From positions 1-28,815 of the IMG/VR virus record IMGVR_UViG_3300027859_000061: a stretch of 28,815 bases of DNA; one strand, written 5' to 3'. This document shows positions 890 to 25,488 of this stretch, in pieces. How positions within the stretch are numbered: position 1 is the stretch's first letter; every line of letters starts with the position of its first letter. A program made the translations under genes and the position numbers. The notes under the pieces are model-generated. The model made no database searches. It worked only from the letters and a program-made list of their open reading frames with translations, and was not told the DNA's origin. The stretch comes from a virus.

Positions 890-1560
890 TATTCTTCTCT
901 CTCGTGTTCATCTCTACCGAACCATATCAGTAGAACAAATCGTTGACCCTCATATATCGGTTCAACCCCATGCCACATTTTTGTAGAATTGTTAAAGAAT
1001 GTAATTGTTCCTATATCTTTTGCAACTAGATTACCTTGCACATTGAGTTGACCGCCTTTGTAGTCATCATTGAGTTGCATGATACATGTTCCAAAGTCTG
1101 TATCTTCTGCAACATCTCTATGAAAAGGGAAGAATGAATCTTCTTTGTAGTGAACAATTTGCATGTATGTAATTCTTCTAAAGTCAGGATGGTCTGGTAT
1201 CAAATGACCCATGACTTCTAATACTGCATTGTATTCTTTTGAACCATCGGCGATAGTCGCATGGTCTTTGTTATGGTCTGCCTCATATTTGTATGATAAG
1301 TTTCTTTCTGTTATCTCATCTGGTGGTGTCACCTCTGAGTTTGCATAATCACATTCAGTAAACGGTAAGTTTAGAAATTGTTCTATGATATGGTCACAAC
1401 CCGCTGGTGTAATTATGTGTGGTATTATCGTAATGAAATCACTGTTGCGTTCTATTTCAAACTCTTCGCCTGAATATTTGTCTACAACAACTTCTGATTC
1501 TGTTTGTTCTTCTGCACCATCCATCTTTGATTGTGCATATGTTCCTAAATTAATAACCAT
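889..1560 (-). CDS. 2OG-Fe(II) oxygenase
   Basis: The protein has 223 aa from the chosen start. FFPFHRDVAEDTDFGTC supplies the HxD iron ligands (H147, D149), MWHGVEP the distal His (H197), and the Arg of EGQRFVLLIWFGR (R207) is the likely 2OG-binding residue. This is a complete catalytic set for a 2OG-Fe(II) dioxygenase; the substrate is unknown. Another in-frame ATG lies six bases upstream at 1566, but the Shine-Dalgarno sequence AAAAGGAG (1567-1574) directly abuts that codon, whereas it has six-base spacing to the ATG at 1560, so 1560 is preferred. The gene overlaps its upstream neighbour by 11 bases and its downstream neighbour by one. Confidence 0.85.
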   Translation of the reverse strand: MVINLGTYAQSKMDGAEEQTESEVVVDKYSGEEFEIERNSDFITIIPHIITPAGCDHIIEQFLNLPFTECDYANSEVTPPDEITERNLSYKYEADHNKDHATIADGSKEYNAVLEVMGHLIPDHPDFRRITYMQIVHYKEDSFFPFHRDVAEDTDFGTCIMQLNDDYKGGQLNVQGNLVAKDIGTITFFNNSTKMWHGVEPIYEGQRFVLLIWFGRDEHEREE

Positions 1561-2266
1561 TGTCATCTCCTTTTGGGTGATAGAAAGTCACTTGCGTGAA
1601 TCTCCAGTTTTCTAAGTATCTATGATAGTCTTCTATATATGCACCATGCATACAATTACCAGGAAATATCACACATCGATTGAACTTCGCAGGTATAACT
1701 TTTCTTATGTTGAATCTCTCTTCTACAGGATATAATAATGCCATGTTCTCATCGTTAGTAATCCATTCACCATCATATATTGCAGTTCCACCATCTTCTT
1801 GTTTATCAAGATAGACTAACATGTTGAGTGTAGACAAATGGTCTGGCGTATTCAATGCACTATCAATGTGAGGATAGTGTTGCATCTTCTTATCAAATAC
1901 TTCTGCTGTCTTGAAACAGTTGAACTCATATAGGCGTGACCAATCATAATGACCTTTGAAGAAATATCGTCTGCATAAATCTAATAATCTCTGTTGAGAG
2001 TTTTCATATAATCTAGTTGGGTGACCAACCTTGTCTACAATTCTACAGTCGAAGTAATCTATACCATTGCGTGTGTTAGATTCAGGATTATATTTCCATA
2101 ATGGGTATTGTCTGTTGATTAAGAACTCGTGTAAGTCTTCTGCATTTTCATAGAAGTCATCTATCACAATTGAGAAACCATCGAATGTATGATTATCAAA
2201 TGAACCTCTCATTTTGTATAGTTCATCGTAATCTACTATTCTGTTGATGTCATCTATGTGGTTCAT
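1550..2266 (-). CDS. 2OG-Fe(II) oxygenase-like protein
   Basis: This 238-aa protein carries a recognisable facial triad: H133 and D135 in YPHIDSAL, and H207 in FPGNCMHGAY, with R222 (NWRFTQ) in the expected 2OG-binding position. The segment LNMLVYLDKQEDGGTAIY matches the core strands of the fold, where a GGT(A/E)IY/F pattern is typical of phage and bacterial members. The substrate is unknown. The start ATG overlaps the TGA of the preceding gene (ATGA), so it is translationally coupled. It differs strongly from its three oxygenase neighbours, so the cluster is not a simple recent tandem duplication. Confidence 0.8.
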   Translation of the reverse strand: MNHIDDINRIVDYDELYKMRGSFDNHTFDGFSIVIDDFYENAEDLHEFLINRQYPLWKYNPESNTRNGIDYFDCRIVDKVGHPTRLYENSQQRLLDLCRRYFFKGHYDWSRLYEFNCFKTAEVFDKKMQHYPHIDSALNTPDHLSTLNMLVYLDKQEDGGTAIYDGEWITNDENMALLYPVEERFNIRKVIPAKFNRCVIFPGNCMHGAYIEDYHRYLENWRFTQVTFYHPKGDDNGY

Positions 2267-3006
2267 GTCAAAACTCCATAATCAAATTGGTCGCCATGAT
2301 GATATGATTCTAAATCTTCGGCGTGTTGTAAGTTAAAGGATATACTTATGCGTTCATAAGATTCATTTTCTCGTGGGTGACCCTTTGGTACGCTATGCAT
2401 TAGATACGATGGCCACAATAAAAAGTCACCATCTTGTGGGTGAAAGTTGAATGATGTATGTTGTCGACCAGTAAATTCATATTGTGAGTCTTCTGGTCTC
2501 ATCTCATCATCATTACCTGACTGACTATGTAATGCAGGCATATTAGGATTCCAGAACTTGATTGGTTCTGATGAGTCTTGCGTTGAGACATAGTATGTGC
2601 CTGATAGTCTAGACTTAACATGATTATGACATTCATGGTCATGTGGTTCATTGTATACATTCACCCATGCAAAGAAATGTATATCGTGTCTATTGACATC
2701 TGTAAAATCTAAATTGTATTGACTTCTACAAAACTCAACATAGGTATCTTTCATCTGATTTGCAAAGTCATTATACCAAGGTTGTTGGTGTGTCTGTTCT
2801 CTTGCATCAGGATAAAAGTATGTGGTGTATTCTGTTAGTGGGTCACCTTTCGGTAATGTGTCTATTATATTTCTACAGTGGTGTGCAACCTCTGTATGAT
2901 TTAGATTTACTTTTCCTTGAAATATAGTTGTAGGGAAGACATTGACATAATCTCCTCTACAAGGTGAATAAGTATTGTTAATTCTGTTCGTCTGTATTGG
3001 TTTCAT
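2263..3006 (-). CDS. Putative 2OG-Fe(II) oxygenase (2OG-FeII_Oxy_5-like)
   Basis: The 247-aa protein resembles the family of putative 2OG-Fe(II) oxygenases in which the iron site sits in an H-x-H...SGTYYV context: here H127 and H129 precede SRLSGTYYVST. The later part GDFLLWPSYLMHSVPKGH gives the distal His (H204), and the Arg in ERISISFNL (R219) is the likely 2OG ligand. The N-terminal VNVFPTTIFQGKV is also usual for this family. His replacing Asp as second ligand is a family feature rather than damage. Its start lies 29 bases inside the preceding lipoprotein gene, and the next gene begins at its stop. It is the first of four tandem oxygenase-like genes. Confidence 0.75.
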   Translation of the reverse strand: MKPIQTNRINNTYSPCRGDYVNVFPTTIFQGKVNLNHTEVAHHCRNIIDTLPKGDPLTEYTTYFYPDAREQTHQQPWYNDFANQMKDTYVEFCRSQYNLDFTDVNRHDIHFFAWVNVYNEPHDHECHNHVKSRLSGTYYVSTQDSSEPIKFWNPNMPALHSQSGNDDEMRPEDSQYEFTGRQHTSFNFHPQDGDFLLWPSYLMHSVPKGHPRENESYERISISFNLQHAEDLESYHHGDQFDYGVLT

Positions 3007-4156: not shown

Positions 4157-4170
4157 ATATTTAGTTGTTA
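4157..4170 (-). promoter_or_regulatory. TAACAACTAAATAT element upstream of the 85-aa gene
   Basis: This 14-base sequence on the minus strand recurs exactly at 21527-21540, again five bases (counted from the ACTAAATA box) before a start codon without a Shine-Dalgarno site. Its 9-base front half, TAACAACTA, is also found at 15319-15327 before the gene starting at 15307. ACTAAATA resembles the T4 late box TATAAATA with two changes. It may be a variant late or middle promoter; the overlap with the upstream stop codon (AAC TAA) is a caution. Confidence 0.35.
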
Positions 4171-4670
4171 TTTCTGAGGTCTTTTAGAATGTTGATAGTA
4201 TTCTTTGCACTAGTGTGAACTATGCCGATACCACCTGCCTCTTCCCATGCATCGATGTTCTTTTGTCTATCATCGATTAGAACAGAACCCTCATAGGCGT
4301 ATGCCGCCTTTTGTGTCCCTGTAAATGTGCAAGTCACTGGCACAGTAGGGTCAACATGTCTCTTAATCCATTCGTTCTTATCAAACACAACCAACTCTCT
4401 GTTGACTTCACCAGCGGCAGTCAATATCTCCCATGGTGTTTCACAATGTCTGACATATGCAAGTAAGTCATACATGTCAACCATAGGTGGCAAGTTTGCG
4501 AATAGTCTTTTGTTAGTAAGTTCTTCTTTTCTTATATCGTATGTAGTGTGACCTGCATCATCATTAGTAAGTGGTTCACCCAAATACTGAGGCATTTCTA
4601 CACCCCTCAAAAAGTCGGCGAGAACACCGTCCATGTCTAAAAATATTCTTTTTATTTTTCCTTTCATCAT
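4161..4670 (-). CDS. HAD-family 5'(3')-deoxyribonucleotidase-like phosphatase
   Basis: The 169-aa protein opens with the HAD motif I FLDMDGVLADF (nucleophile D12, acid/base D14), has a motif II-like ILTAAGE, and ends with motif IV SVLIDDRQKN. The small size and DMDGVLADF signature match the NT5C-like deoxyribonucleotidases of phages, which remove phosphate from (deoxy)nucleoside monophosphates; a role in tuning nucleotide pools would fit the upstream nrd operon. The frame extends to a TTG at 4706, but that TTG is the first base triplet of a perfect -35 box. The start at 4670, six bases after the TATAAT box, is therefore chosen; it also places motif I close to the N-terminus as in homologues. 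Confidence 0.8.
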   Translation of the reverse strand: MMKGKIKRIFLDMDGVLADFLRGVEMPQYLGEPLTNDDAGHTTYDIRKEELTNKRLFANLPPMVDMYDLLAYVRHCETPWEILTAAGEVNRELVVFDKNEWIKRHVDPTVPVTCTFTGTQKAAYAYEGSVLIDDRQKNIDAWEEAGGIGIVHTSAKNTINILKDLRNNN

Positions 4671-4676
4671 GTAAGT

Positions 4677-4706
4677 ATTATAGTCTTTTTTGATGGTCAT
4701 TGTCAA
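4677..4706 (-). promoter_or_regulatory. Consensus sigma70 promoter for the HAD gene
   Basis: On the minus strand a perfect TTGACA (4701-4706) and a perfect TATAAT (4677-4682) are 18 bases apart. The -10 box ends six bases before the ATG at 4670, so the transcript should begin at or next to the start codon. The promoter lies inside the 3' end of the HExxH gene, indicating that the HAD gene can be transcribed separately from the nrd operon. Confidence 0.7.
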
Positions 4707-5399: not shown

Positions 5400-5629
5400 A
5401 CTTTTCTATAACCCTTAGACCATTCTTCTAGTTCAGTGTAACCACCTATGTTTTCACCATGAACTCTGATTTGTGGAAATGTTCTTGCACCAGGAAACTT
5501 GTCTAACATTTCTTCTCTGCCAAAATCTGTTCCTAATGATTGATATGTGTATTCATACCCTTTCATTTCACATAATTGTTTTGCCCTATCACAAAAAGGA
5601 CATTGTGGTTTTCCGTATATCTCTATCAT
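5396..5629 (-). CDS. Glutaredoxin
   Basis: This 77-aa protein is a complete glutaredoxin: active site CPFC (C10-C13), the cis-proline segment TFPQI (T50-P52) and the glutathione-binding GGYTEL (from G62). It should use glutathione to reduce disulfides in the cytoplasm; the obvious partner is the C-terminal CxxC of the NrdA encoded upstream, since each round of ribonucleotide reduction leaves that pair oxidised. Start and stop overlap neighbours as ATGA on both sides, placing it firmly in the nrd operon between the cytochrome c gene and an 84-aa unknown. Confidence 0.93.
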   Translation of the reverse strand: MIEIYGKPQCPFCDRAKQLCEMKGYEYTYQSLGTDFGREEMLDKFPGARTFPQIRVHGENIGGYTELEEWSKGYRKV

Positions 5630-6075
5630 TCTGGTAACCCCGCTTCTATAAATTCGCCAATAGTATCTATATCACTATCTGATAATAGACCTGCCTGAGC
5701 CCACATAGTTGAACTCATATTGCCGACTGTTTCTCTATTTTGATAGGCGTATAACCTATCGACTATGTATTCTTTACTTTGACCTGCAAGTGCAGGAAAT
5801 ACTCCCATACCCTCGCCTTTCTGACCATGACAAGCGGCACAACCACCCCATAGACCACGAATAGAACTGAATTCGTCAAGACTTGCAAGTGCTTGTTTCT
5901 CTCTTAATTGTTCTACAACAGTTCCGTTTTCTTCGACATATTTGACATAACATTCACCTGTGCATGAACTGTTTCTTGGGTAACCTTTGTATTCTAAGTT
6001 GTTATATGTATGACTTAAAAGACCATACATGAACCCACATATGCCTATTACTAAATAAAATGCATTTTCTCTCAT
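5626..6075 (-). CDS. Membrane-anchored cytochrome c, class I (c553-like)
   Basis: The 149-aa protein has an N-terminal hydrophobic segment (residues 6-21) acting as signal peptide or membrane anchor. It then has a linker with a CTGEC pair (C38, C42) and a cytochrome c domain: heme-binding CAACH at 79-83, GxGxxxFPALAGQS, and a likely axial Met at M124 in TMWAQAGLLSDSDI, typical of c553-type proteins. It should sit on the periplasmic side and need the host's heme-attachment machinery. An upstream in-frame start at 6165 would place 30 extra residues before the signal; the ATG at 6075 is chosen because it overlaps the previous stop as ATGA and puts the hydrophobic segment at the N-terminus. Cytochromes are unusual phage cargo. 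A role as an electron shuttle that keeps respiration going during infection is inference. Confidence 0.88.
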   Translation of the reverse strand: MRENAFYLVIGICGFMYGLLSHTYNNLEYKGYPRNSSCTGECYVKYVEENGTVVEQLREKQALASLDEFSSIRGLWGGCAACHGQKGEGMGVFPALAGQSKEYIVDRLYAYQNRETVGNMSSTMWAQAGLLSDSDIDTIGEFIEAGLPE

Positions 6076-6293
6076 AGTTTTATTGCCAATAGTAAGAAAA
6101 TCGCCATCAATGTGATGTTTGCAAAGAACATCAATAAACCTAGTATCGTATGATACCAAATCCATCTTGTCTTGTATGCGTTCTCTATTGTTAATTCATC
6201 GGGGTCAGGCGAACCATCTGTATTTCTTGCAACTTTTTTAGATAGTTCTTCCTCTTCTCTACTTCCCCATAGTATTTGCCACCATTTGTTCAT
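6072..6293 (-). CDS. Small membrane protein next to cytochrome c
   Basis: The 73-aa protein has a charged, cytoplasmic-type N-terminal half (EEEELSKKVARNTDG) and a hydrophobic C-terminal half from residue 44 (WIWYHTILGLL... to LLLAIKL), long enough for one long or two short membrane helices. I recognise no family. It lies between nrdB and the cytochrome c gene with ATGA overlaps on both sides, so it is co-translated with the cytochrome and could be its membrane partner or dock it to a host oxidase. That is inference from position and topology. Confidence 0.7.
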   Translation of the reverse strand: MNKWWQILWGSREEEELSKKVARNTDGSPDPDELTIENAYKTRWIWYHTILGLLMFFANITLMAIFLLLAIKL

Positions 6294-7387
6294 AATTTGA
6301 AATCCTGAAATGTATCGTCACTGACATCTTGTTTAATCCCACCAATGACATAAGATTCAATCTCTGTCTCTTGTGGGGCGTTCTGTAATCCTCTACTATT
6401 CAACCAGTGACGAGTCCATGGTAAAGGATTGTTAGCAGATGATACATCGTATATTGGGTTGAGACCAATCATTCTTAATCTCTTGTTTGCAATATACTCG
6501 ACATACTTATTCAATAGTGGTACCGATAAACCTATCATACTACCATCTTTGAATAGAAACTCTGCCCATTCTTTTTCTTGTGCAACTGCATCTTCATACA
6601 TCTCGTAAACTTCTTGTTCACAATCTTTCATGACTTTATTCATTATCTTATCATTCTCATGTTTCTGATAACATTTAAGTATGTGTTGTGATGTTGCAAG
6701 GTGTTGTGCCTCATCTCTGGCGATGAATGATATTATCTTCGCACTTCCTTCCATCAGTTTAAGTTCACCAAATGCAAAACTACATGCAAATGATACGAAA
6801 AATCTTATGCCCTCTAGTATGTTGACTGATACAAGTGCAAGATATAATGCCTTGTATAGTTCATACTCATCTACTTTCAACCCTAAGAGTTGTCTACGAC
6901 CTAATTCTATGAAATGGTCATACTTTTCTGTGACCATAACTGCCCTCTTAATGATTGCATCTTCGTCTAAAATAGTGTCAAATACATCGGCAGGGTTTGG
7001 GTATATGTTCTTGATGATATGTGTATAACTTCTACTATGAATAGTCTCCATGAAGTCCCATGTAATGATACAAGACTCTAGTTCAGGTAAAGTGACGAAT
7101 GGTAAGAATGCTATGGACGGCGCTCTACCTTGAACTGAGTCTAGTAAAGTTTGATATCTGAGATTAGAAGTAAAGATATGTTTTTGTGCATCATTGAGTG
7201 TTGCGTAATCGTTTCTATCTTTTTGTAATGATACTTCTTCTGGTCTCCAGAAATACCCTAATTGTGTTTGTGTAAGTTTGTCAAAGATAGGATATTTGAA
7301 CTCATCAAATCTTTGCGTGTTTAGTTCTTCACCAAAGAATAACTTGTTCTTTGTGAAATCGATTTTGTTCTTATTAAATACTGTCAT
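6290..7387 (-). CDS. nrdB: Ribonucleotide reductase class Ia, small subunit
   Basis: This 365-aa protein is the radical-generating beta subunit of aerobic ribonucleotide reductase. All diiron ligands and the radical tyrosine are present. D83 lies in LLDSVQGR, E114 and H117 in METIHSRSY, the radical Y121 follows directly, E192 lies in NILEGIRF, and E226 and H229 in RDEAQH. They match E. coli D84, E115, H118, Y122, E204, E238 and H241. The frame opens at 7411, but the ATG at 7387 overlaps the preceding TGA (ATGA) and gives the usual N-terminus TVFNxN, so it is preferred. It works with the NrdA encoded upstream; the two genes are separated by an oxygenase gene. Confidence 0.97.
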   Translation of the reverse strand: MTVFNKNKIDFTKNKLFFGEELNTQRFDEFKYPIFDKLTQTQLGYFWRPEEVSLQKDRNDYATLNDAQKHIFTSNLRYQTLLDSVQGRAPSIAFLPFVTLPELESCIITWDFMETIHSRSYTHIIKNIYPNPADVFDTILDEDAIIKRAVMVTEKYDHFIELGRRQLLGLKVDEYELYKALYLALVSVNILEGIRFFVSFACSFAFGELKLMEGSAKIISFIARDEAQHLATSQHILKCYQKHENDKIMNKVMKDCEQEVYEMYEDAVAQEKEWAEFLFKDGSMIGLSVPLLNKYVEYIANKRLRMIGLNPIYDVSSANNPLPWTRHWLNSRGLQNAPQETEIESYVIGGIKQDVSDDTFQDFKL

Positions 7388-8325
7388 TTCTTTTTCTCTA
7401 CTATATGCCAATCATCATAATTGTTCACCATGTTTTGATACTCTGCCTTATAATATGCAGTATCAAATCTATTGAACTCTTCACTTGTTTGTAAATTTGT
7501 CCATCTATTTGCACGACCATCTAGTTCTAATGCATATCTAGGATGTGCTGTCGGAACATCATGGTTTTCGCCTACAATAAACTCATTGATATCTCTCATG
7601 AGAGATTGTGCATTGAAGAAGTGAATGAATAGATGATAACTATAATCACCTAGTAAGTAGTCTCGCCAGTGTGGTATGTTTGGTCCTTGATACAACAGGA
7701 TATCTCCTGGTTCAAGTGATATCGCCTTACACCCATGATTAGTTCTAAGTCTCTGCGGTATGTCCTGTGATTGTTTCTTTACAGTATCGCCATCGACTTT
7801 TGCATAATTTCTATCATTCTTTACCCATATCTTCCAAGGTTTGTTGTCATCGGTTTTGTAATCTAGACAAAGTGTTGCACTTACCTCACATGATGGTCTA
7901 TCAGTGTGAGTTCCTAGATATGCACCTCTTGTATACTTTCTAGTATATGAGTATGTCTCCCTCAAATCCATATCAATATAATCTTTGAGTTTATTATGTA
8001 TAAAACCGTGAAGTGCAACACCCCATGGTGTGCAATAACCACCCTTAGATTTACCTATTGATGACTGAGGATTCTTAAATGTGATATCTCTGTTCTCTTG
8101 TTTTGTGTGATAGTCACCTCTTTCTTCATCAGCACGCCATATATCCATTGCAAATCGAATCATTTCTTTTGGTAAAAAATCTCTCAACACAACATATCTT
8201 TCTTTCATGAACTGCCATGTTTCAGGATTAGTTCTGCCTCTTATCTTTGTTGTGTGTTCATGTGATTCATGAACTCTGGCATCCATATAATATTCTATTG
8301 TCTTTGCATCAAATGGCACAGGCAT
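7384..8325 (-). CDS. 2OG-Fe(II) oxygenase-like protein between nrdA and nrdB
   Basis: The protein has 313 aa from the chosen start. Iron-site residues are visible as GTHTDRPSCEVS (H140, D142) and IPHWRDYL (H219), in the strand context of the double-stranded beta-helix fold (EPGDILLYQG before the distal His). Basic residues near the end of the fold could bind 2-oxoglutarate, but I cannot pick one with confidence. The frame extends to a TTG at 8349, with ATGs at 8343 and 8340. ATG 8325 is chosen because GAGGAAG lies six bases upstream. It overlaps the end of nrdA by 17 bases and nrdB by 4, so the three are co-translated. A link to ribonucleotide reduction is possible only by position. Confidence 0.75.
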   Translation of the reverse strand: MPVPFDAKTIEYYMDARVHESHEHTTKIRGRTNPETWQFMKERYVVLRDFLPKEMIRFAMDIWRADEERGDYHTKQENRDITFKNPQSSIGKSKGGYCTPWGVALHGFIHNKLKDYIDMDLRETYSYTRKYTRGAYLGTHTDRPSCEVSATLCLDYKTDDNKPWKIWVKNDRNYAKVDGDTVKKQSQDIPQRLRTNHGCKAISLEPGDILLYQGPNIPHWRDYLLGDYSYHLFIHFFNAQSLMRDINEFIVGENHDVPTAHPRYALELDGRANRWTNLQTSEEFNRFDTAYYKAEYQNMVNNYDDWHIVEKKK

Positions 8326-10600
8326 CGCAATCTTCCTCATCATTATCAAATGGGTCTTGTTCTAATGGTTCTTGAATTACATCTTCTACTTTACCATCCA
8401 TAGTGTTCTGATAGTATGATGTCTTCCAACCATATTTGTATGTATTCAGTAAGTCTTTCGCCATAACTGATACAGGCACTTCATTATTATCATAGTTCTC
8501 GGGATTGTATGACCAGTTACCACTGATACCCTGGTCGAAAAACTTCTGCATTACTGCAACTATGTTGATATAACCTGTATTGTCTGGCATATCCCATAAC
8601 AAAGTGTATGCACTTTTAAGGTGTGAGTATTGTGGCACTATTTGTTTGAGTGTTCCTTTCTTACTCTTCTTGACTGACAAGTAATCTCTAGGTGGTTCAA
8701 TACCATTAGTTGCATTTGATGATACACTAGATGATTCACTTGGCATTTGTGCAGTAAGTGTTGAATGTCTCAAACCATTTGTCATTATCTCTGCCCTTAG
8801 TTTCTCCCAATCCATAGTATATTTTGGTTTTACAATATCATCTACATCTTTCTTATATGTATCTATCGGTAGAATACCTTTTGAATACTTTGTTCTATCG
8901 AAATAATCACATGCACCTTTTTCTATTGCAATTTGATTACTTGATTTGAGTAGATAGTATTGAAACTTCTCAGTCAACTCGTGGACGAGATTCCAGGCGT
9001 TCTGGTCACTATATTTGACTCTATTTTTCGCCAGATAGTGTGCAAGACCAATATACCCTATACCTAAACTTCTTCTTGCACGAGTAGACATCTCAGCGGC
9101 AGCGACAGGATATTCTTGATAGTCAATCAACTCTTCTAAACCCCTCACTGCAAGGTCGCAAATCTCTTCTAGTTCTTCATCTTTGACTACACCCACATTC
9201 ACCGCACTCAATATACATAGTGCAATCTCACCCTCATGGTCATCAATATGTTGTATTGGGTCTGTAGGTAATGTAATCTCTTGACATAGATTACTCATGT
9301 TCACCTTATCTAAGAATGAACTATGAGTATTACTATGGTCTATATTCATGATATAGATTCTGCCAGTCTCCGCTCTTTCTTTGAGTAAATCTGTAATTAA
9401 CTCTCTGGCACTTATTTTCTTTTTAGGAACTGAATATGCGTTCTCATACTTTTCATACATCTCATCAAATGTATCGGTACCAAATGCCTCGTATAAACCA
9501 GGCACATCATGAGGACTGAATAAAGTTATCTCTTCGTTGTTTAAGAATCTCTTGTAGAATAATTCTGATAACTGAATACTATAATCTAGTTTTCTAACTC
9601 TGTTGTCTTCTGTTCCTTTGTTGTTCTTTAGAACAATAATATCTTCGATTTCTTGGTGCCAGATAGGAAAATGAACTGTTGCACTACCCCCTCTTACACC
9701 ATTCTGAGTGCAACATCTGACCGTTGACTCGAACTTTTTCAAGAATGGTATAACACCTGTGTGTTGCACTTCGCCACCTCTTATCTTTGCACCAAGACCT
9801 CTAACTCTTCCTGCGTTGATACCAATACCTGCCCTTTGGGCGACATATCGACCAATCGCCATGTCACTAGAGAATAGTGAATCTAATGTATCATCACTAT
9901 CAACTAGAACACATGATGCAAATTGTTTCAGTGGTGTTCTTACACCTGCCATGATAGGCGTAGGTATGTTTATCTTAAACTGAGATGTTGCATCATAATA
10001 TTTTTTGATATATGTAAGTCTGTTATCTTTGTCATAGTTTCTAAACAATGTCATTGCAATTAACATATACATGAATTGTGGTGTCTCAAACAATGTGCCT
10101 GTTGACCTATCTTGAATCAGATACTTATCTACTACTTGTTGTAGACCTGCATATGTAAATTCATAATCTCTACTATGTCTTAGATATGAGTTTAGTTTTG
10201 TATACTCTTCTTCTGTATAATCACTGAGTAAATCATTTGTATATAAACCTGCGTTCACATTTCTTTCTACGATATCTCTGAGTGGTGGATATATCTCTGC
10301 ATCTTTCCACTTTGTATTGAATACTTGTTTCTGAACTGCAAACAATAATAATCTGGCCGCCACGAACTGATAGTTTGGTGATTCTAAACTGATAAGGTCA
10401 CTTGCACTTTTGACAAGTATCTTTTGTATTTCTTGCGTTGTAATGCCATCATAAAACTGTAGACCACTATTCATTTCTACTAATGATTCTGATACACCTG
10501 TAATGTTTCTACAGGACTTCTCAACCATTTTATGTATCTTATCTAAATCAATATTTACTTTTGAACCATCTGACTTAATAACTTTTATTTCTGAATTCAT
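8309..10600 (-). CDS. nrdA: Ribonucleotide reductase class Ia, large subunit
   Basis: This 763-aa protein is the catalytic alpha subunit, almost the length of E. coli NrdA (761). It has an N-terminal ATP-cone (EIKVIKSDGSKVNID), the redox cysteines C230 (FASCVL) and C462 (ALCILSA), the active-site loop N437/C439/E441 (SNLCQEITLPT), the radical-transfer pair Y729-Y730 (TSYYQNT) and a C-terminal CxxC (C758, C761) that hands reducing power to the active site. It makes dNDPs for phage replication. The nearby glutaredoxin is the likely reductant. Its start overlaps the primase stop as ATGA, so primase, nrdA, the oxygenase and nrdB form one transcript. Confidence 0.98.
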   Translation of the reverse strand: MNSEIKVIKSDGSKVNIDLDKIHKMVEKSCRNITGVSESLVEMNSGLQFYDGITTQEIQKILVKSASDLISLESPNYQFVAARLLLFAVQKQVFNTKWKDAEIYPPLRDIVERNVNAGLYTNDLLSDYTEEEYTKLNSYLRHSRDYEFTYAGLQQVVDKYLIQDRSTGTLFETPQFMYMLIAMTLFRNYDKDNRLTYIKKYYDATSQFKINIPTPIMAGVRTPLKQFASCVLVDSDDTLDSLFSSDMAIGRYVAQRAGIGINAGRVRGLGAKIRGGEVQHTGVIPFLKKFESTVRCCTQNGVRGGSATVHFPIWHQEIEDIIVLKNNKGTEDNRVRKLDYSIQLSELFYKRFLNNEEITLFSPHDVPGLYEAFGTDTFDEMYEKYENAYSVPKKKISARELITDLLKERAETGRIYIMNIDHSNTHSSFLDKVNMSNLCQEITLPTDPIQHIDDHEGEIALCILSAVNVGVVKDEELEEICDLAVRGLEELIDYQEYPVAAAEMSTRARRSLGIGYIGLAHYLAKNRVKYSDQNAWNLVHELTEKFQYYLLKSSNQIAIEKGACDYFDRTKYSKGILPIDTYKKDVDDIVKPKYTMDWEKLRAEIMTNGLRHSTLTAQMPSESSSVSSNATNGIEPPRDYLSVKKSKKGTLKQIVPQYSHLKSAYTLLWDMPDNTGYINIVAVMQKFFDQGISGNWSYNPENYDNNEVPVSVMAKDLLNTYKYGWKTSYYQNTMDGKVEDVIQEPLEQDPFDNDEEDCDACAI

Positions 10601-11642: not shown

Positions 11643-11671
11643 ATTATACAGTAATGTGGTCTGTTTGTCTA
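11643..11671 (-). promoter_or_regulatory. Sigma70-type promoter for primase and the nrd operon
   Basis: TAGACA (11666-11671, five of six matches to TTGACA) and a perfect TATAAT (11643-11648) are 17 bases apart on the minus strand. The -10 box ends eight bases before the primase ATG at 11634, predicting a leader of at most one or two bases. It occupies the only gap between the membrane-protein gene and the primase gene, and separates the virion-type region from the nucleotide-metabolism operon. Confidence 0.7.
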
Positions 11672-12487
11672 CTTGGTTTTGTCTACTTTAGGAAGTTTAT
11701 TTTTAGGCACTTGAATGACATATCTGTTCTCAACAACCTTTGGTTTATCTTGTTCGACTCTTCTCGCAATCAGACCAGTTGTTGACACCAATAATAACAC
11801 CGCAAGTGGGTCAAACACAAAGATGAGTGCGTAAATCACCCACCTAACAGCGTTGTCAAGATACTTGACACTTTCCTCTTGACCATAAATTACCTCTGCA
11901 ACATACTTGATTGGGCCAATCTCCGCTTCTTGTTCTAACTGCAATCTTTGTAATGGTAATTTATCTTCATTCAATTCTACTATATCACCTATGATTATGT
12001 CAATATCATTTGCGATTTCATCTCTCTCATCTTTCTGTCTTCTATCAATATAGTTTCTGTCTTGTGGTCTTGCAGTGTCTAGAATGTTATCTAAACCTGC
12101 AACTCTATCTTCTAGTCTCTGTAATTGTCCTTCTTTTGATTCTATTCTCTTATCGATGATAGACATCTCTAGTGAGTATGAATCACCTACAAGTGTTGTC
12201 TCTATGTTTGCCTTTGATAGATACCCAAATATACCTAATGATGTAATTAACATCAAGACACCAACTGAGGTGACTAGATAGTATTTCATGTAGTTTAGTT
12301 TGTCCCACGCAATATGTAAAAAGGCGGCAGTCACTAACTTACCAAACTCTAATGCACTCATCATGACAATAGTTCCAATATAAGCACCTGCAAATATAGT
12401 TGCCATACCTAAGATTGAAAAGTAAGCGGCGATACCTGCAATACCTATAGAGGTAAATAGGGCTAGCCAGTTTAAAAATTTTAACAT
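11669..12487 (-). CDS. Multi-pass membrane protein with coiled coil
   Basis: The 272-aa protein has three N-terminal membrane segments (about 5-24, 26-46, 69-90). A roughly 100-residue charged coiled-coil follows (105-190), then a fourth membrane segment (216-240, with VFDPLAVLLLVSTTG) and a basic tail. The layout resembles phage and bacterial proteins of the DUF4407 type, with which the 'FxxDPLAVLLL' end is compatible, but I am not certain. An in-frame ATG at 12577 lies 88 bases inside the preceding gene; the ATG at 12487 is chosen because it follows directly after that gene's stop and starts at the first membrane segment. Function is unknown; the coil would face the cytoplasm or periplasm between helices three and four. 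Confidence 0.7.
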   Translation of the reverse strand: MLKFLNWLALFTSIGIAGIAAYFSILGMATIFAGAYIGTIVMMSALEFGKLVTAAFLHIAWDKLNYMKYYLVTSVGVLMLITSLGIFGYLSKANIETTLVGDSYSLEMSIIDKRIESKEGQLQRLEDRVAGLDNILDTARPQDRNYIDRRQKDERDEIANDIDIIIGDIVELNEDKLPLQRLQLEQEAEIGPIKYVAEVIYGQEESVKYLDNAVRWVIYALIFVFDPLAVLLLVSTTGLIARRVEQDKPKVVENRYVIQVPKNKLPKVDKTK

Positions 12488-12488
12488 A

Positions 12489-14291
12489 TTAATAGTCGTA
12501 TCTTTTGAGAATTCGTGTATAGAGTTTCTCAGCCTCTTTTTTGTTCTTGTCTTTATATCTATTTCTACTTCTGACAAGTGGCGTATCTGTTGATACAGCG
12601 GCGCCTGTTGCGTTCACTGGTGCATCTTCATCTATGACATTGTTATGGGCATCCCAATCTAGAATGTATTCCATCATGTCATCTGCAACTTTATAACCTG
12701 CGGTCTTATCACTAGGATAGTGTATACCTGCGTTGACTCTTCCTTCACCCGATTTGTCTGCCATTTCAAATAATTTATCTTGATGTGCAGGATATATTTT
12801 ACTATAGTAGTTTGCAATTACTTTTGCCTGTAGTGCATGATTACTAGGATACGCAGGTGAATGTGCTGTCTCAGTATCTAAGAACTTTATAGGCATACCA
12901 AGTTTCTCTGCGACAACATATGGTCTTGGTCTCATGTATTTGTTTTTAAAATGTCTGCCTACATTTCTTGCACTTTTCTTTAATAGTTCCATAAAGTTCT
13001 CGTTGAACTCTAAGTCATTGTCTTCCATGTATTCTTTGATATAGTATGATGTGTCTTCATCTGTATCAATATACTCTTTCTTCTTGGCGTCAGATAAGTT
13101 TTTAATTTGTTTACTCATCTGTTCTAATTCTGCCTTTGTCTCTTTTGATGTGTTTGCAGGCGGGTCTTTCATCTCTAGTTTATCTAGACATTTGATATCA
13201 AAATATTTACCTAGTTCTTTCTTCTTAACATTTTTTGCATCGAATTGTGATTTAAGACTATCTAACTTCTGAACTGACTCAATAAACATCTCATTCTGAA
13301 TACCAAGTTTCTTGTCAACTGCCTTTGTGCCTTTCTCTATTGATTGACCCATTGACTCTGCCCATTTGACCATTCTCTCTTTCATGACTTTGCCTGCCTT
13401 AGTCTCACCTGCACTCTGTAATCCTGAGTATGTCAATGCAAGTGCAAGACCTGTAGCACCACCCATCCAGATAGGAAGACCGCCTGTTGCCATACCTACA
13501 GATAGTAAACCCATACCTTTTATACCATCAGGTGTGGCGATTAGTTCTCTGAAACCTGCCTCTCCTGCAAATGCTTGTGGTATTATCGTAAGGTCAAAAT
13601 CAGATTCAATATCACCTGAGAATGACATTCTTAACCACTGACCAATTGCAAGTCCTGATACTGCAACTGCACTCAGTTTTGATAGTGCTGGGTTTGACTG
13701 CATAAACTCATCAGTCTTTATGATACCTCTTTCTAATTTCTGAAATGATTTTGTATCATGAATAGCGGCGCCACCAACTGTAAGAGTTTTACCTACAGTT
13801 CTAAGTGTGCCCATGACAATTCTTGATGATGCGGATATAGAACCACCAATTGCCTTAACTGTATTGTATACTGATGGTTGTTTAAATGCAATTTGTATTG
13901 TTTCTAAATCGGCGCCAACTGCATCTACAACACTTTGAACATGTTGTTTTAAGTCTTTGACTGTATCTGGTAATGTCTCATCTACTTCTGGTTCTTGTTC
14001 TGCCTCTGCACCATCACCAACACCATCTGCATAATCATCTGCCTCTTTGTCTTCTGGTTCTGGTTCGTCTGATTGTGATTTGTCGGCGATTGCCTTTTTG
14101 AGTTGTTTTGTTTTCTCTGAATCAGGATGTGCCTTGATGTATGCCTGTTGTTTCTCTGGCGACATATCAAAGAACCATGCATCTTTCTTTTTAGTTTCTT
14201 CGATTAGTAATTCTTCGAATACTAAATCTACAGTGTCACACCATTTTCTATAGTCTTCATCTATGTGATATAATACTTCTTCAATATACAT
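12489..14291 (-). CDS. 600-aa protein with C-terminal PAP2-type phosphatase domain
   Basis: Residues 1-60 are charged, 70-110 an acidic linker (EPEPEDKEADD), 150-310 contain Gly/Ala-rich hydrophobic stretches (GLLSVGMATGGLP), and 320-430 are coiled-coil-like. Residues 449-528 carry the full PAP2/vanadium-haloperoxidase signature. Motif 1 is K449-x6-R456-P457, motif 2 is PSNH (482-485, Asn for the usual Gly), and motif 3 is R518-x5-H524-x3-D528. The domain should remove phosphate from a phospholipid, nucleotide or other phosphoester via a phospho-His intermediate. Its placement in a large protein among virion-type genes suggests a structural or injected enzyme rather than a housekeeping one; that is inference. 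The start overlaps the previous gene by 11 bases. No signal peptide is visible. Confidence 0.75.
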   Translation of the reverse strand: MYIEEVLYHIDEDYRKWCDTVDLVFEELLIEETKKKDAWFFDMSPEKQQAYIKAHPDSEKTKQLKKAIADKSQSDEPEPEDKEADDYADGVGDGAEAEQEPEVDETLPDTVKDLKQHVQSVVDAVGADLETIQIAFKQPSVYNTVKAIGGSISASSRIVMGTLRTVGKTLTVGGAAIHDTKSFQKLERGIIKTDEFMQSNPALSKLSAVAVSGLAIGQWLRMSFSGDIESDFDLTIIPQAFAGEAGFRELIATPDGIKGMGLLSVGMATGGLPIWMGGATGLALALTYSGLQSAGETKAGKVMKERMVKWAESMGQSIEKGTKAVDKKLGIQNEMFIESVQKLDSLKSQFDAKNVKKKELGKYFDIKCLDKLEMKDPPANTSKETKAELEQMSKQIKNLSDAKKKEYIDTDEDTSYYIKEYMEDNDLEFNENFMELLKKSARNVGRHFKNKYMRPRPYVVAEKLGMPIKFLDTETAHSPAYPSNHALQAKVIANYYSKIYPAHQDKLFEMADKSGEGRVNAGIHYPSDKTAGYKVADDMMEYILDWDAHNNVIDEDAPVNATGAAVSTDTPLVRSRNRYKDKNKKEAEKLYTRILKRYDY

Positions 14292-14910
14292 CTTCGGCAG
14301 TGAATAGAACTTTGTCTTCGCCTATTCTTCCTTCGTAAATGAGAACACCATAACCTATGCAAGATTCTTTTACATCTGTTATCTTTGTCTTCTCTGGATA
14401 AATTTTGATTTCGCCATTGTCTTCAAAGTTTTGTTTAAGTTGTCTTCTTAGATGATAGTCACCACCCTCCATTCTTAAAGTGCAAAGTTTACCAACTTCT
14501 GTTGCCTCTTCTAACATCTCAGGTTCAAATACATCTTCTTCTTTGAGTAGTCTATAGAAGTCTTCATACAATTGGTCTGTTTGTTCTGAGTCTAGATTTG
14601 TTTCTTCTTTGAGTAATGCAAGTGCAACGGCGTATGAGGCAAATGCAGTCTTACCAAATGGCACCATTCTAATTAGTTTCTTTAGATTGAATACTAATCT
14701 ATGTAATGGTGTAAGTGAATTCTTCTCTTCTTTTGTTTTAGGGTTGTTCTCTATGAATGAACCTTTGACATCTGGATGCGGAAGTTTCTTGATACGATTA
14801 CCATTTGAGTCTATGAACCCAAACTTATATGCAGGAGTTTTTTTGAAGTCTGTTGTCAACATCTTCAAAATCCTGAATACGATTAAACTGTCTATTACTC
14901 TTCCGACCAT
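14281..14910 (-). CDS. Conserved T4-like phage protein of unknown function
   Basis: The 209-aa protein has a hydrophobic N-terminus (VGRVIDSLIVFRILKML) followed by KTPAYKFGFIDSNG and LHRLVFNLKKLIRMVPFG. I recall similar proteins in T4-like marine phages, always unassigned. The C-terminal part is acidic and then beta-rich. A later ATG at 14862 would remove the hydrophobic leader; the full-length start is kept because a late-promoter-like CATAAATA lies five bases upstream of it. It is transcribed together with the PAP2 gene, whose start lies within its last codons. Confidence 0.65.
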   Translation of the reverse strand: MVGRVIDSLIVFRILKMLTTDFKKTPAYKFGFIDSNGNRIKKLPHPDVKGSFIENNPKTKEEKNSLTPLHRLVFNLKKLIRMVPFGKTAFASYAVALALLKEETNLDSEQTDQLYEDFYRLLKEEDVFEPEMLEEATEVGKLCTLRMEGGDYHLRRQLKQNFEDNGEIKIYPEKTKITDVKESCIGYGVLIYEGRIGEDKVLFTAEDVY

Positions 14911-14915
14911 ATATC

Positions 14916-14923
14916 TATTTATG
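14916..14923 (-). promoter_or_regulatory. Late-promoter box CATAAATA
   Basis: The minus strand carries CATAAATA followed by five bases (GATAT) and the ATG at 14910. It matches the NATAAATA form of the T4-family late promoter. In T4 transcription starts about six bases after the box, which here is the A of the start codon. No Shine-Dalgarno sequence is present. Confidence 0.5.
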
Positions 14924-15367: not shown

Positions 15368-15802
15368 TTATACTAAAGAACCGTATACTTTGAACGAACC
15401 TGATTCTAGTTGTTCGTATTTGACTTTTAGAGAAACGATTTTCTCTTCTTTGTCTAATTGGTCAATAGGTGTGTCAACTGATTTACCAATTGTTTCGCCT
15501 CGAAGTGAAAACTCTAAGTTCATTTCTCCTGAACCTGAGAACTCTTCTTCTTGAACTTCACCATGACCTTCAACTGAGTTTTTCTTATGAAGACCTAACA
15601 TAGATAGTTTTGATTCCATTTGTGCGATAGCAGCCTTAGGGTTCATGAACTCAGAAACAGCAGTATGTCCTAATATTGCGTTTACTTTGTTCTTAACTTC
15701 TAAGTCATCTATATCATAAGGAACTTTAGATGAAGATAAACCTGCACCTTGAAACCCTGGCATGCCATGGTCTTCGTGTAAATATTCTTTAAATGTTTTC
15801 AT
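15368..15802 (-). CDS. Candidate internal head protein with capsid-targeting N-terminus
   Basis: The 144-aa protein begins MKTFKEYLHEDHGM, closely resembling the T4 capsid-targeting sequence MKTYQEFIAE. L-H-E at residues 8-10 provides the prohead-protease consensus (I/L)-x-E. The rest is unrecognised: a Gly/Ser-rich stretch, a helix (NPKAAIAQMESKLSML) and a beta-rich C-terminal half (MNLEFSLRGETIG, SLKVKYEQLE). AGGAT precedes the ATG. The protein is probably packaged in the head and trimmed after residue 10; what it does there is unknown. Confidence 0.65.
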   Translation of the reverse strand: MKTFKEYLHEDHGMPGFQGAGLSSSKVPYDIDDLEVKNKVNAILGHTAVSEFMNPKAAIAQMESKLSMLGLHKKNSVEGHGEVQEEEFSGSGEMNLEFSLRGETIGKSVDTPIDQLDKEEKIVSLKVKYEQLESGSFKVYGSLV

Positions 15803-21544: not shown

Positions 21545-22081
21545 TTACCAGAAAAATGAACCACCACCACTCAAACCTAATTGTTTTGCGTATCTTGGTA
21601 GTCTACAAGACCAATAACCTGGTGTAGTTTTATCGTTTGCAGTATCACAATTATGTCTTGCAACATAAGATGCTCTTGCTTTTGGGTCTTTGAATTTTAC
21701 ACTTAGACCTGATGTATCTCCAAATGTGACTTTCTTTACTTTGTCACCATCTTTGACATACACATAAAACTTCTTAGGCCCACCTGCTTTTGGTTTGCCT
21801 ATAGGTTTGTCTTCATTCTCTTCGTTTATTTCCATCATAGGACAATCTAAGGGAACTAAATTGCCCTCAAATACATCATATTCACCTAAATCTGTTTCTA
21901 GAATCATACCATCTATTTCGGTAAGTCTATATTTTTGTTCTTTTGCGAGTCTTCGTGCCTCGTTAATGATTTCGAAATACATCATTGAACCTAATCTGAA
22001 AGGATTGTCTAACAGATTTGTATGGTTTATCTGCATCTCATCGAGTGTTTCTCTTATTGCAAGTTCTTTGAATGTCTTCAT
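21545..22081 (-). CDS. Candidate head-targeted protein with DUF5872-like domain
   Basis: The 178-aa protein begins MKTFKELAIRETLDE, a T4-type capsid-targeting leader with a possible cut after I-R-E (residues 9-11). The C-terminal half (about 95-175) matches what I know of DUF5872: KKFYVYVKDGDKVKKVTFGD, then ARHNCDTANDKTTPGYWSCR and LPRYAKQLGL. The paired Cys (HNC, WSC) suggest a metal site or disulfide. Function of the domain is unknown; it is common in phages and could bind DNA. The ATG overlaps the upstream TGA as ATGA, which fixes the start at the targeting peptide. Confidence 0.7.
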   Translation of the reverse strand: MKTFKELAIRETLDEMQINHTNLLDNPFRLGSMMYFEIINEARRLAKEQKYRLTEIDGMILETDLGEYDVFEGNLVPLDCPMMEINEENEDKPIGKPKAGGPKKFYVYVKDGDKVKKVTFGDTSGLSVKFKDPKARASYVARHNCDTANDKTTPGYWSCRLPRYAKQLGLSGGGSFFW

Positions 22082-22488
22082 TTTTGTGGTATTGCGTTTT
22101 TGTCTGCCTTTTCTATAGGTTTCTTTCTTTTCTTATTGAGTTCTTGTTTGATTAAACCCTTTCTGAGTTTCTTAGCAATTCTGGCGATAGCGGCAGTCTT
22201 CTTATCTAAAAACTTACTGAGTGCAATCTTTTGACCCATGCCCAAGTCTTTCTCTGATTTACCTCTGAGTCTTTTCTTTTTAAGAACTAATCTTGCCTTC
22301 TTCTTTGCTCTTCTGTCAATAGTTTTCTTATCTATCTTAATTTTTTTAGAAGCAATCTTTCTGGCGATTTTCATTTTGTTCTTATTCTTTCTAGCCGCCT
22401 TTGCTCTTTTAAGACGAGTCATCATAGAGTCGACTCTTTCGTCTAACTCTGTGCTATCGTCTTCTAAAAATTCACGAAATGTTTTCAT
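22078..22488 (-). CDS. Highly basic head-targeted protein, histone-like
   Basis: The 136-aa protein starts MKTFREFLEDDSTELDERV, a capsid-targeting-like leader with L-D-E at residues 15-17. After the leader it is almost entirely Lys/Arg/Ala/Ile: by my count 50 of 136 residues are Lys or Arg. Such a protein would bind DNA strongly and, if packaged, could neutralise or condense the genome, much as T4 internal proteins are basic and leave the head with DNA. Start and stop overlap neighbours (TAATG upstream, ATGA downstream), fixing the start at the leader. Confidence 0.7.
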   Translation of the reverse strand: MKTFREFLEDDSTELDERVDSMMTRLKRAKAARKNKNKMKIARKIASKKIKIDKKTIDRRAKKKARLVLKKKRLRGKSEKDLGMGQKIALSKFLDKKTAAIARIAKKLRKGLIKQELNKKRKKPIEKADKNAIPQK

Positions 22489-22787
22489 TAGTCTTCTAAG
22501 TCTACCTTACCGTCCCATTTGCCTGATTCAATTTGTCGTATCATGTCATAACATGCACTTTCGACTGCTTGTAAACCTTTAAATATTTTGTCTGGTCCTT
22601 GAGCTGCACGATTGTTATATTGAAACTTCTCGTGGTCTTTGTTAAGTTTTTCAACAGTCTTTAAAATCTTTCTATAACCATTGATTTCTGACTTTCTGTT
22701 AAACTCTGAACCTTTTTTCTCAGCAGGACTTTTCTTATGAAAGTCTATTCTCTCGTTCAGTTGATTATATTCTTTAAATGATTTCAT
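22488..22787 (-). CDS. Small head-targeted protein of unknown function
   Basis: The 99-aa protein begins MKSFKEYNQLNERID, with the targeting pattern and a site L-N-E at residues 10-12. The rest is a charged helical protein with SACYDMIRQIESGKWDG near the C-terminus; no family is recognised. TAATG overlaps at both ends place it in a translationally coupled chain with the DUF5824-like gene upstream and the basic protein downstream. Confidence 0.65.
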   Translation of the reverse strand: MKSFKEYNQLNERIDFHKKSPAEKKGSEFNRKSEINGYRKILKTVEKLNKDHEKFQYNNRAAQGPDKIFKGLQAVESACYDMIRQIESGKWDGKVDLED

Positions 22788-24195: not shown

Positions 24196-25488
24196 CTATT
24201 TATACTTTTTTGTAAGTAATTGTCTTTGTCTCCATAAAGAAGAAGGTTTGTTATTAGGGAAAGATGTAGACCATGTCATAAGTTTACTAAACAATGAGTT
24301 TGTTTTCTTTTGTAGTGTTGACAAATCATCATCATTTGTGACTTGAACAAAGTCTTTTTTGAATATCTTCTTCATGATATCAATATTCTTTTGTGACCTA
24401 TCCCAATCTTTCTTAACTATTTCAGGTGGTAATTTTCTAGCACGCATTGAGTTTCTTTTTTGTGCGTTATCTAATGATGCACTTACATACACCATCTTAG
24501 ATTCATACCCCAATCTATCTAACATACCTTTGTAGAATTTAATCTTACTTGAATCTGCACTTGTAGTATCGAAAACAAGACCTAGTCTGCCATCAATGTA
24601 TCTGTCCATCATTCTAGTAGTTTGTCTTTTTGCTTTCTTTCTGATTGGGTCTCTGATTTCAGCAGGCACAGTTTTTAAATCTAGAGTTTGACCTGCCTTT
24701 TTTAAACCTGTTTCAAATGATTTATCTGTATTGACTATCTTCAAACCTAATGCCTTGAATGATAATTTATTTACTACAGTTGATTTACCAGAACCTGGAC
24801 CACCCATTAAGAATACTGCCTTGAAAATGCCTGGGTCATATACACCCTCTTGAATTAAATCTTCTTGCATGTAAAGTGGTAGGTGTGTATCTTCGTTGAT
24901 ACCCATACCCTTACGCACATCTTTGTATAGTTTGTCTGCGAACTGTTTATTTGCCACACCTTGTTTGAATGTGTCGAAGTCTCCTTGTTCAGCGGCAGCT
25001 CTCATTTTACTTGCACTCATTCCTGATACATCATCTGCATCGGGGTCTCTCTCACCTGCACTGACTATCTGTATCTCATCGAACTTATAGAAACCATGTC
25101 TTGCCTTTGTGCCATTGTATTTCTTTAGTAATGCATCGAACTCTCTGATTCTATCTGAACCTGCAACCATATAGATACTTCTATACCCTTGACTGTATAA
25201 TGCGTTTGCAATTTCAAATACAGTTCTTGCACTGACATCTGGCACTTTGACTTTCTTACCAAAGAACTTTCTTAGATAGTTTACTTTCTGTTTGTGATTG
25301 AGTGGATTCTTTTTCTTATCGTTTGAATGTGATGTAAATACCATTGCATCACCACCAACTTTCTTTGCAAGTCTATTCAATACATCAACTAGTTTTGCGT
25401 GTCCTGTTGTCGGTGGATTGAAACGACCAAATGCAAACACTACTGGTCTGTTCTTTGCTTCTGATATAAATCTTTTTAGTGTTTTCAT
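24196..25488 (-). CDS. Capsid-targeted NMNAT-like nucleotidyltransferase fused to P-loop kinase
   Basis: The 430-aa protein starts MKTLKRFISEAKNRP, a capsid-targeting-like leader with I-S-E/A at residues 8-11. Residues 16-195 form an HIGH-type nucleotidyltransferase: GRFNPPTTGH (21-30) and MSASKMR (157-163), as in NMN adenylyltransferases. Residues 222-410 are a P-loop kinase: GGPGSGKST (229-237) and VFDTTSADSS, close to zeta-toxin/PNK-type kinases. Between them, I212-Q-E214/G fits the prohead-protease rule, so the two domains might be separated in the head. The order resembles NadR (NMNAT plus nicotinamide-riboside kinase), making NAD salvage a candidate, though the kinase half looks less like NadR. 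An upstream TTG at 25500 is rejected: ATG 25488 shares its A with the upstream stop (TAATG) and starts exactly at the leader. Confidence 0.75.
   Translation of the reverse strand: MKTLKRFISEAKNRPVVFAFGRFNPPTTGHAKLVDVLNRLAKKVGGDAMVFTSHSNDKKKNPLNHKQKVNYLRKFFGKKVKVPDVSARTVFEIANALYSQGYRSIYMVAGSDRIREFDALLKKYNGTKARHGFYKFDEIQIVSAGERDPDADDVSGMSASKMRAAAEQGDFDTFKQGVANKQFADKLYKDVRKGMGINEDTHLPLYMQEDLIQEGVYDPGIFKAVFLMGGPGSGKSTVVNKLSFKALGLKIVNTDKSFETGLKKAGQTLDLKTVPAEIRDPIRKKAKRQTTRMMDRYIDGRLGLVFDTTSADSSKIKFYKGMLDRLGYESKMVYVSASLDNAQKRNSMRARKLPPEIVKKDWDRSQKNIDIMKKIFKKDFVQVTNDDDLSTLQKKTNSLFSKLMTWSTSFPNNKPSSLWRQRQLLTKKYK
24197..24204 (-). promoter_or_regulatory. Late-promoter box TATAAATA
   Basis: A perfect late box on the minus strand overlaps the last two codons and stop of the kinase-fusion gene (TAT AAA TAG) and ends five bases before the ATG at 24191. 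The T4 rule puts the first transcribed base at the start codon. Confidence 0.6.

Follow-up and report, generated by a model that had tools for sequence, protein, structure and literature searches.

Class A nonspecific acid phosphatases, which are secreted to the periplasm via a signal peptide and carry the signature G-S-Y-P-S-G-H-T, act on a broad range of phosphomonoesters at acid pH. On the phage side, the available portions of two reports describe the internal proteins of T4, with their targeting sequence and trimming (PMC3012670, PMC9958956). A cytidylyltransferase-like protein has been detected in the virions of S-SM1 (PMC3037559), S-SCSM1 (PMC9602691), and S-CREM2 (PMC10665884), according to the available portions of these papers, the latter two of which note that enzymes detected in virions are possibly contaminants. 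Here, a known enzyme fold is found in a new setting, as part of a 600-amino-acid phage protein.

The window, i.e. the whole stretch of 28,815 bases that was analyzed (IMG/VR record IMGVR_UViG_3300027859_000061), comes from an uncultured marine T4-like phage, and the genes taken as real all lie on its minus strand. Pfam and NCBIfam scans identified the genes for ribonucleotide reductase (nrdA and nrdB) and a DnaG-type primase, and the window also has a block of small genes, most of which matched nothing in Pfam. With a DUF6267 neighbor used as a marker, the nearest annotated phages are the methylophage Melnitz group, Pelagibacter phage HTVC008M, and cyanophages, and the three records examined from these groups belong to the family Kyanoviridae. 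A T4-type gp23 capsid gene occurs in six of the nine longer records carrying the PAP2 family (one of the nine has only the N-terminal module, CORE, described below); the remaining three, which may be fragments, gave no gp23 match. The window also contains four consecutive 2OG-Fe(II) oxygenase-like genes at positions 257-3006, three of them above the Pfam cut-off and the third in order (1550-2266) just below it, with a DUF6445 match; a candidate fifth oxygenase at 7384-8349 was rejected, having no Pfam match at 0.001. Other genes encode an NT5C-type 5'-nucleotidase (4161-4706), a cytochrome c-like protein (5626-6165), and a protein with a cytidylyltransferase-like domain followed by an AAA_33/zeta-toxin-type kinase-like domain (24196-25500).

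The gene under study, at 12489..14291 on the minus strand (the plus strand of this interval is full of stops, and the initial annotation had not stated the strand), encodes a CORE-PAP2 fusion of 600 amino acids with relatives in 20 IMG/VR loci, 19 of which match from residue 1, the other (L013) being cut at a contig edge. The PAP2 module, residues 335-600 (12492..13289, minus), opens with Met335 (NE-MFIESVQ), resembling the starts of separate PAP2 genes, and ends in a tail, residues 555-600 (12492..12629, minus; EDAPVNATGAAVSTDTPLV...), a form of which is also present on many separate PAP2 genes. The catalytic motifs, residues 449-528 (12708..12947, minus), read K449-x6-R456P457, P482SNH485, and R518-x5-H524-x3-D528; they are supported by motif, homology, and conservation, and the complete pattern K-x6-RP...PSxH...R-x5-H-x3-D was absent from all 20,000 shuffles of the fusion protein. 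The full PAP2 active site first proposed for residues 449-528 is thus confirmed by an exact motif, the shuffles, and homology to acid phosphatases. Across 63 distinct domains, comprising the window's and 62 from the best 80 of at least 577 IMG/VR loci, Lys449, Arg454, Arg456, Pro457, Tyr481, Pro482, and Ser483 never vary, nor do His485, Gly517, Arg518, Gly522, His524, and Asp528. Because Ser483, His485, and Asp528 were partly preselected by the scan patterns, Lys449, Arg456, Arg518, and His524 provide the independent test, and the His and Arg residues, whose loss in homologues the initial annotation had named as telling against its reading, are kept in all 63 domains examined. Among the 14 fused proteins of alignment A1 (the window and 13 of the 20 fusion loci, the other seven being identical proteins), Arg454 is replaced by Tyr in L004 and L005, with the catalytic set kept. 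The Gly-to-Asn change noted in the second motif is real but ordinary, position 484 being Gly in 43, Asn in 19, and Ser in one of the 63 domains. Both modules are under purifying selection, with dN/dS values of 0.07-0.21 for PAP2 and 0.05-0.19 for CORE (seven pairs each, of which the more divergent ones approach saturation). Given the retention of the catalytic residues in 63/63 domains and the low dN/dS, the enzyme is most likely active, as judged from sequence; catalysis would proceed by His524 with His485, which we take to be the catalytic pair from what is known of the superfamily.

By its motif and its predicted helical-bundle fold, the module belongs to the PAP2 superfamily. Pfam PAP2 (PF01569) gave an E value of 0.0015 and 18.7 bits with the window protein, against a cut-off of 27.2 bits, whereas the two separate-gene relatives scanned, L057 (40 bits) and L113 (48.9 bits), exceed it; NCBIfam PhoC matched the window protein with an E value of 1.1e-5, far under its own cut-off, and a PHROGs search at 0.01 returned no match to the fusion protein. 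The acid phosphatase 7f18 in the PDB was matched by phmmer (E 7.4e-10), and a profile of 10 relatives placed class A acid phosphatases as the nearest solved relatives (E 1.7e-14). The AlphaFold model, whose confidence is good mainly for the PAP2 module, reaches a pLDDT of 65-94 per 10-residue block over residues 431-540, and a PAP2 bundle is predicted for this segment, in line with the check that had been proposed. In Foldseek with the model of the full protein, the 26 best matches are all class A acid phosphatases (best E 6.8e-5, target TM-score about 0.65, five at E ≤ 0.001), with membrane PAP2 enzymes and vanadium haloperoxidases ranking below them. The best 19-residue hydropathy is 1.25 in CORE and 0.31 in the PAP2 part, so that the fusion protein has no clear transmembrane helix, and by the hydropathy measure alone no signal-peptide-like hydrophobic stretch appears in the first 60 residues (best value -0.03). 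These results give no support to the two functions initially suggested. As regards a membrane-acting enzyme, the 26 best Foldseek matches are soluble and the PAP2 part is without a hydrophobic stretch; as regards phosphate scavenging, no signal-peptide-like stretch is seen, and Pfam shows no phosphate-uptake or Pho-type neighbor among all 38 window proteins, although the NT5C-type nucleotidase gene is present.

The N-terminal module, CORE, spans residues 1-334 (13290..14291, minus) and is defined by alignments A1, A3 (the window, Phage NCTB, and seven of the A1 loci), and A5 (the window and 20 chosen loci); it is most conserved at about residues 206-295. A further alignment, A4, comprises the window and nine of the A1 loci. 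The description of this part as Gly/Ala-rich holds, and it is predicted to be helical, in AlphaFold models of low confidence built with 14 and 21 rows (mean pLDDT 48.4 in the second); its hydrophobic character stops short of a clear transmembrane helix. PHROGs searched against 21 CORE members gave scattered weak matches, the best with an E value of 0.00069. A motif at residues 42-60 (window 14112-14168), MSPEKQQAYIKAHPDSEK, recurs by eye upstream of the conserved core in CORE relatives, including that of Phage NCTB. CORE without PAP2 was found in 11 IMG/VR loci (L042-L049 and L051-L053, some of them near-identical) as well as in Phage NCTB, and the window protein is a fusion of two modules each found without the other; neither this make-up nor the large family of separate PAP2 genes was visible to the initial annotation. 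CORE also has other partners. For example, in L049 (5737-7203) it is joined to a w209-type protein (E 6.2e-24 to an HTVC008M gene), in L045 to a basic protein matching a separate Melnitz gene (E 3.5e-14), and L042 and L051 have in common a third type of CORE tail. In the window, a gene of the same type as this L049 partner, w209, immediately precedes the fusion gene. In our reading of the sequences, the joints resemble former N-termini, as in QMKTFLELYEG of L045 and NEMFIESVQ of the window protein.

The fusion state has changed repeatedly. In a tree of 67 PAP2 rows, from which L107, L114, and L125 were left out as cut at contig edges, the fused rows need four state changes, of which well-supported branches force at least three, so that fusion, loss, or exchange happened more than once. 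The window protein is 68-95% identical to the fused protein of L006 over residues 121-320 and 28-60% identical thereafter, and it is 70-71% identical to the separate gene of L057 over residues 441-560. A simple module swap is disfavored by the last 40 residues, which are 90% identical to the fused protein of L005 and 38% to the separate gene of L057; any exchange therefore covers the enzyme part and not the tail.

There are at least 577 related IMG/VR stretches, of which the best 80 were examined, as against weak partial matches at most among 50,697 annotated phage records, a collection that may lack close relatives of the window's own record. One of the four queries had no match there, and the matches to the others cover at most 58% of the query at no more than 35.5% identity (best E 1e-6), falling in bcrC or PAP2-family genes, hypothetical genes, and unannotated records. 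A genome scan gave ten matches on MAG contigs, nine of them at 28-35% identity. The best, L138 in a Verrucomicrobiales MAG (42%, E 2e-39), had been a candidate for a cellular origin of PAP2 and was rejected as such, being probably a phage contig, because a w209-type ORF adjoins its PAP2 ORF, which has the same tail. In the literature, as far as the sources are available, the terms PAP2 or phosphatase together with phage lead to incidental or unrelated papers, and the family may still be in print; the available part of PMC9469726 concerns a giant-virus contig, the words "phosphatase" and "PAP2" are absent from the main text of the pelagimyophage paper (PMC7029224), and the word "phosphatase" is absent from the Melnitz paper (PMC9004378).

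PAP2 occupies a recurring slot. The gene directly upstream of the fusion, w209 (14281..14910, minus; PHROG 18642/2086), overlaps it by 11 bases, and the downstream gene, TM302 (11669..12484, minus, with Met 12484 as the likely start), encodes a membrane protein with four hydrophobic segments. Within the best 80 of at least 577 PAP2 loci, figures that are not shares of the whole family, the order w209, PAP2 as a separate gene, TM302 accounts for 45, CORE-PAP2 followed by TM302 for nine, PAP2 within a cytidylyltransferase protein for 10, and PAP2 before DUF6267 for nine; four left-cut loci have PAP2 before TM302, one right-cut locus has it after w209, one has it after TM302, and one has none of these neighbors. 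Measured from the first Met, the median length of the separate PAP2 ORFs is 253 amino acids (58 ORFs). The proteins joining PAP2 to a cytidylyltransferase-like part (L118, L119, L122, L124, and L126-L131) are about 910-1030 amino acids long, and the one scanned, L122, has an additional nucleotidyltransferase domain near the Pfam cut-off. Conversely, among the best 80 of 103 TM302 loci, again not shares of the whole family, PAP2 is present in 69 and absent in 11, eight of which have more than 3,000 bases upstream; the CORE, PAP2, and TM302 sets partly share contigs with the 20 fusion loci. In L187 and L189, TM302 comes after w209 and the PAP2 gene that would separate them is missing, so PAP2 appears dispensable, and an obligatory PAP2-TM302 pair is ruled out by TM302 occurring without PAP2. 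In five other TM302-only loci, a small gene and an apparent DNA polymerase gene lie upstream (by eye). HTVC008M and Melnitz carry homologues of w209 and the primase in order, with no PAP2 match at an E value of 1e-6. L187 also carries an AurF-like N-oxygenase gene (1173-2261, Pfam E 9.7e-13) between w144 and DUF7207.

The sequence ATAAATA precedes w209 at 14916..14922 on the minus strand and resembles the T4 late promoter, given as TATAAAT in the available part of PMC3037559. Counted in distinct loci over the 60 bases that precede the start of each match, [ACT]TAAATA is present before w209 in 39/39, before DUF7207 in 15/35, nrdB in 8/34, w144 in 7/39, an S-layer-like gene in 6/34, and three others once each; it is found in 0/44 before the primase, 0/38 before nrdA, 0/43 before TM302, and 0/63 before PAP2. 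The number of copies of ATAAATA in the window is in itself meaningless, being lower than in shuffles (5 versus a mean of 11.6, i.e. rarer than expected), and it is the fixed place before w209 that counts. The window element ends 5 bases before the w209 ATG, which is odd for a promoter. The element may point to late expression of the gene.

Whether the enzyme travels in the virion was approached through a T4-type N-terminus pattern which, although written post hoc, retrieves ipI, ipII, and ipIII and no others from 32 complete T4 genes in one stretch and matches 1/66 proteins in an S-CREM2 stretch, 2/59 in an HTVC008M stretch, and 4/38 in the window. The four window proteins (15368-15802, 22078-22488, 22488-22787, and 24196-25488, all minus) start with MKTFKEYLHED, MKTFREFLEDD, MKSFKEYNQLN, and MKTLKRFISEA, respectively, and the fusion protein is not among them; another at 21545-22081 (minus) starts with MKTFKELAIRE and fails the pattern. 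Of 18 chosen N-termini of PAP2 relatives, some with start codons selected among several, ten fit it, namely that of L123, where PAP2 follows TM302, and nine in which PAP2 has a DUF6267 or cytidylyltransferase setting, compared with 0/6 for those of the window slot. In the latter slot, the PAP2 genes, the window's included, encode proteins beginning with M(F/Y)I(E/N)E... or similar. Separate PAP2 proteins start with MKTYKEYINED (L123), MKNFTNYFEEA (L113), and MRRLKSYIIED (L120), to be compared with MKTYQEFIAEA and MKTFKEFTST of T4, and the CORE-only protein of L045 has the T4-internal-protein-like start MKTFKNYTST. The virion cytidylyltransferase of S-CREM2, which starts with MKNFSSFLTEA, is homologous to that of the window (E 3.7e-37), and its gene precedes DUF7207 and then primase, nrdA, and nrdB. 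According to the available part of PMC10665884, the S-CREM2 virion list includes genes 154, 155, 156, and 160 and not 157, 158, 159, and 161, gene 160 sitting between DUF7207 and the primase. The clear window homologues in this block are limited to the cytidylyltransferase (154), DUF7207 (159, absent from the virion list in that part of the source), and the primase (162); genes 155 and 156 have no window match, and gene 160 matches w305 weakly (E 0.004). Of the virion enzyme initially envisaged, the PAP2 fold and active site stand, and a virion location is plausible by association.

Our preferred interpretation, to which we assign a probability of roughly 0.45, is that of a late, soluble phosphomonoesterase carried in the phage head. 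Late in infection, a marine T4-like phage would make the PAP2-type enzyme and pack it in the prohead among other internal proteins; ejected with the DNA into the host, it would, at the start of the next infection, remove phosphate from a small soluble phosphoester, thereby aiding host takeover or countering defense. The ester would most likely be nucleotide-like, a guess drawn from the cytidylyltransferase link. In the lineage of the window, the enzyme would be the C-terminal part behind CORE, a helical module also joined to other small phage proteins. Packaging is indirectly supported by the targeting-like N-termini of relatives, the virion-type fusion partner, and the late-promoter-like element. 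Next in our ranking, and rather doubtful, is the same soluble phosphatase staying unpackaged in the infected cell as an auxiliary metabolic enzyme on nucleotides or sugar phosphates. The window protein does lack a canonical targeting motif, an NT5C-type nucleotidase is also encoded in the window, class A acid phosphatases have broad activity, and in most long-enough loci of the slot the PAP2 gene stands directly before TM302, followed by primase, nrdA, and nrdB. Against it stand the conserved element before w209, none being found before primase or nrdA, the T4-type N-termini of other clades, and the 10 loci, among the best 80 of at least 577, where PAP2 is joined to a cytidylyltransferase protein of virion type.

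An enzyme of the membrane or envelope, perhaps held there by CORE or TM302, that acts on phosphates of lipids or undecaprenyl phosphates to help in phage entry, in lysis, or in keeping out other phages, is improbable. The downstream gene encodes a membrane protein in 58 (45 + 9 + 4) of the best 80 of at least 577 loci, and CORE has moderately hydrophobic Gly/Ala-rich helices, but none of its stretches exceeds 1.25 and the PAP2 part is devoid of hydrophobic stretches; the closest structures are soluble enzymes, TM302 lacks PAP2 in eight loci with room upstream, and PAP2 lacks TM302 as a neighbor in the DUF6267 (nine) and cytidylyltransferase (10) settings of the same 80. The retention of the catalytic residues in 63/63 distinct domains, with dN/dS of 0.07-0.21, makes it more improbable still that the PAP2 part is a noncatalytic structural or binding domain of the virion, as might be read from its score under the Pfam cut-off and from the Asn in motif 2, which is common to 19 of the 63 domains. 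Extending the head-packed phosphatase to a wider picture, which taken jointly is speculative and unlikely to hold in full, marine T4-like phages may carry interchangeable head-packed enzymes, with CORE as a carrier spliced before varied cargo (PAP2, the w209-type protein, and the basic protein found alone in phage Melnitz) whose former N-termini are kept. PAP2 would be the phosphatase of a packaged set that adds the cytidylyltransferase and kinase-like protein and that would rewrite host nucleotide/NAD chemistry, or undo nucleotide-based defense, on entry.

Compared with known systems, the phage domain is closest in sequence and fold to class A acid phosphatases (P. aeruginosa 7f17/7f18, PhoN, PhoC, and E. 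blattae 1d2t), with which it shares K-x6-RP, PSxH, and R-x5-H-x3-D as well as solubility. It differs from them in having Gly rather than Ser before Arg518 and another context in motif 2, in showing no signal peptide, and in being joined, in part of the family, to CORE or a cytidylyltransferase protein. Because motif 2 of the window protein reads S-P-A-Y-P-S-N-H-A, departing from the class A signature, and no signal peptide is seen, the module is not a class A acid phosphatase, although its mode of action is probably similar. Membrane PAP2 lipid phosphatases (B. subtilis 5jki, PgpB, and LpxE) belong to the same superfamily and are weaker fold matches, and they have several transmembrane helices, whereas the phage module has none by hydropathy. 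Phage NCTB BN7874_033, a 243-amino-acid hypothetical protein, is a CORE homologue (31% over residues 114-309) but, unlike the window protein, has no PAP2 part; the CORE fusions constitute a natural set of carrier-and-cargo joints. The T4 internal head proteins IPI, IPII, and IPIII have starts resembled by the N-termini of some PAP2 and CORE relatives and are dispensable cargo, as PAP2 would be; the likeness concerns these relatives, the window protein having no such capsid-targeting motif. The virion NMNAT/cytidylyltransferase-like proteins of S-SM1, S-SCSM1, and S-CREM2 are a different enzyme from PAP2, which the available parts of the sources do not mention with them. They are, on the other hand, of the same type as a window gene (homology being shown for S-CREM2), and PAP2 is directly fused to a protein of this type in 10 loci among the best 80 of at least 577; if PAP2 is packaged as well, a phosphatase would be added to the enzymes carried in phage heads.
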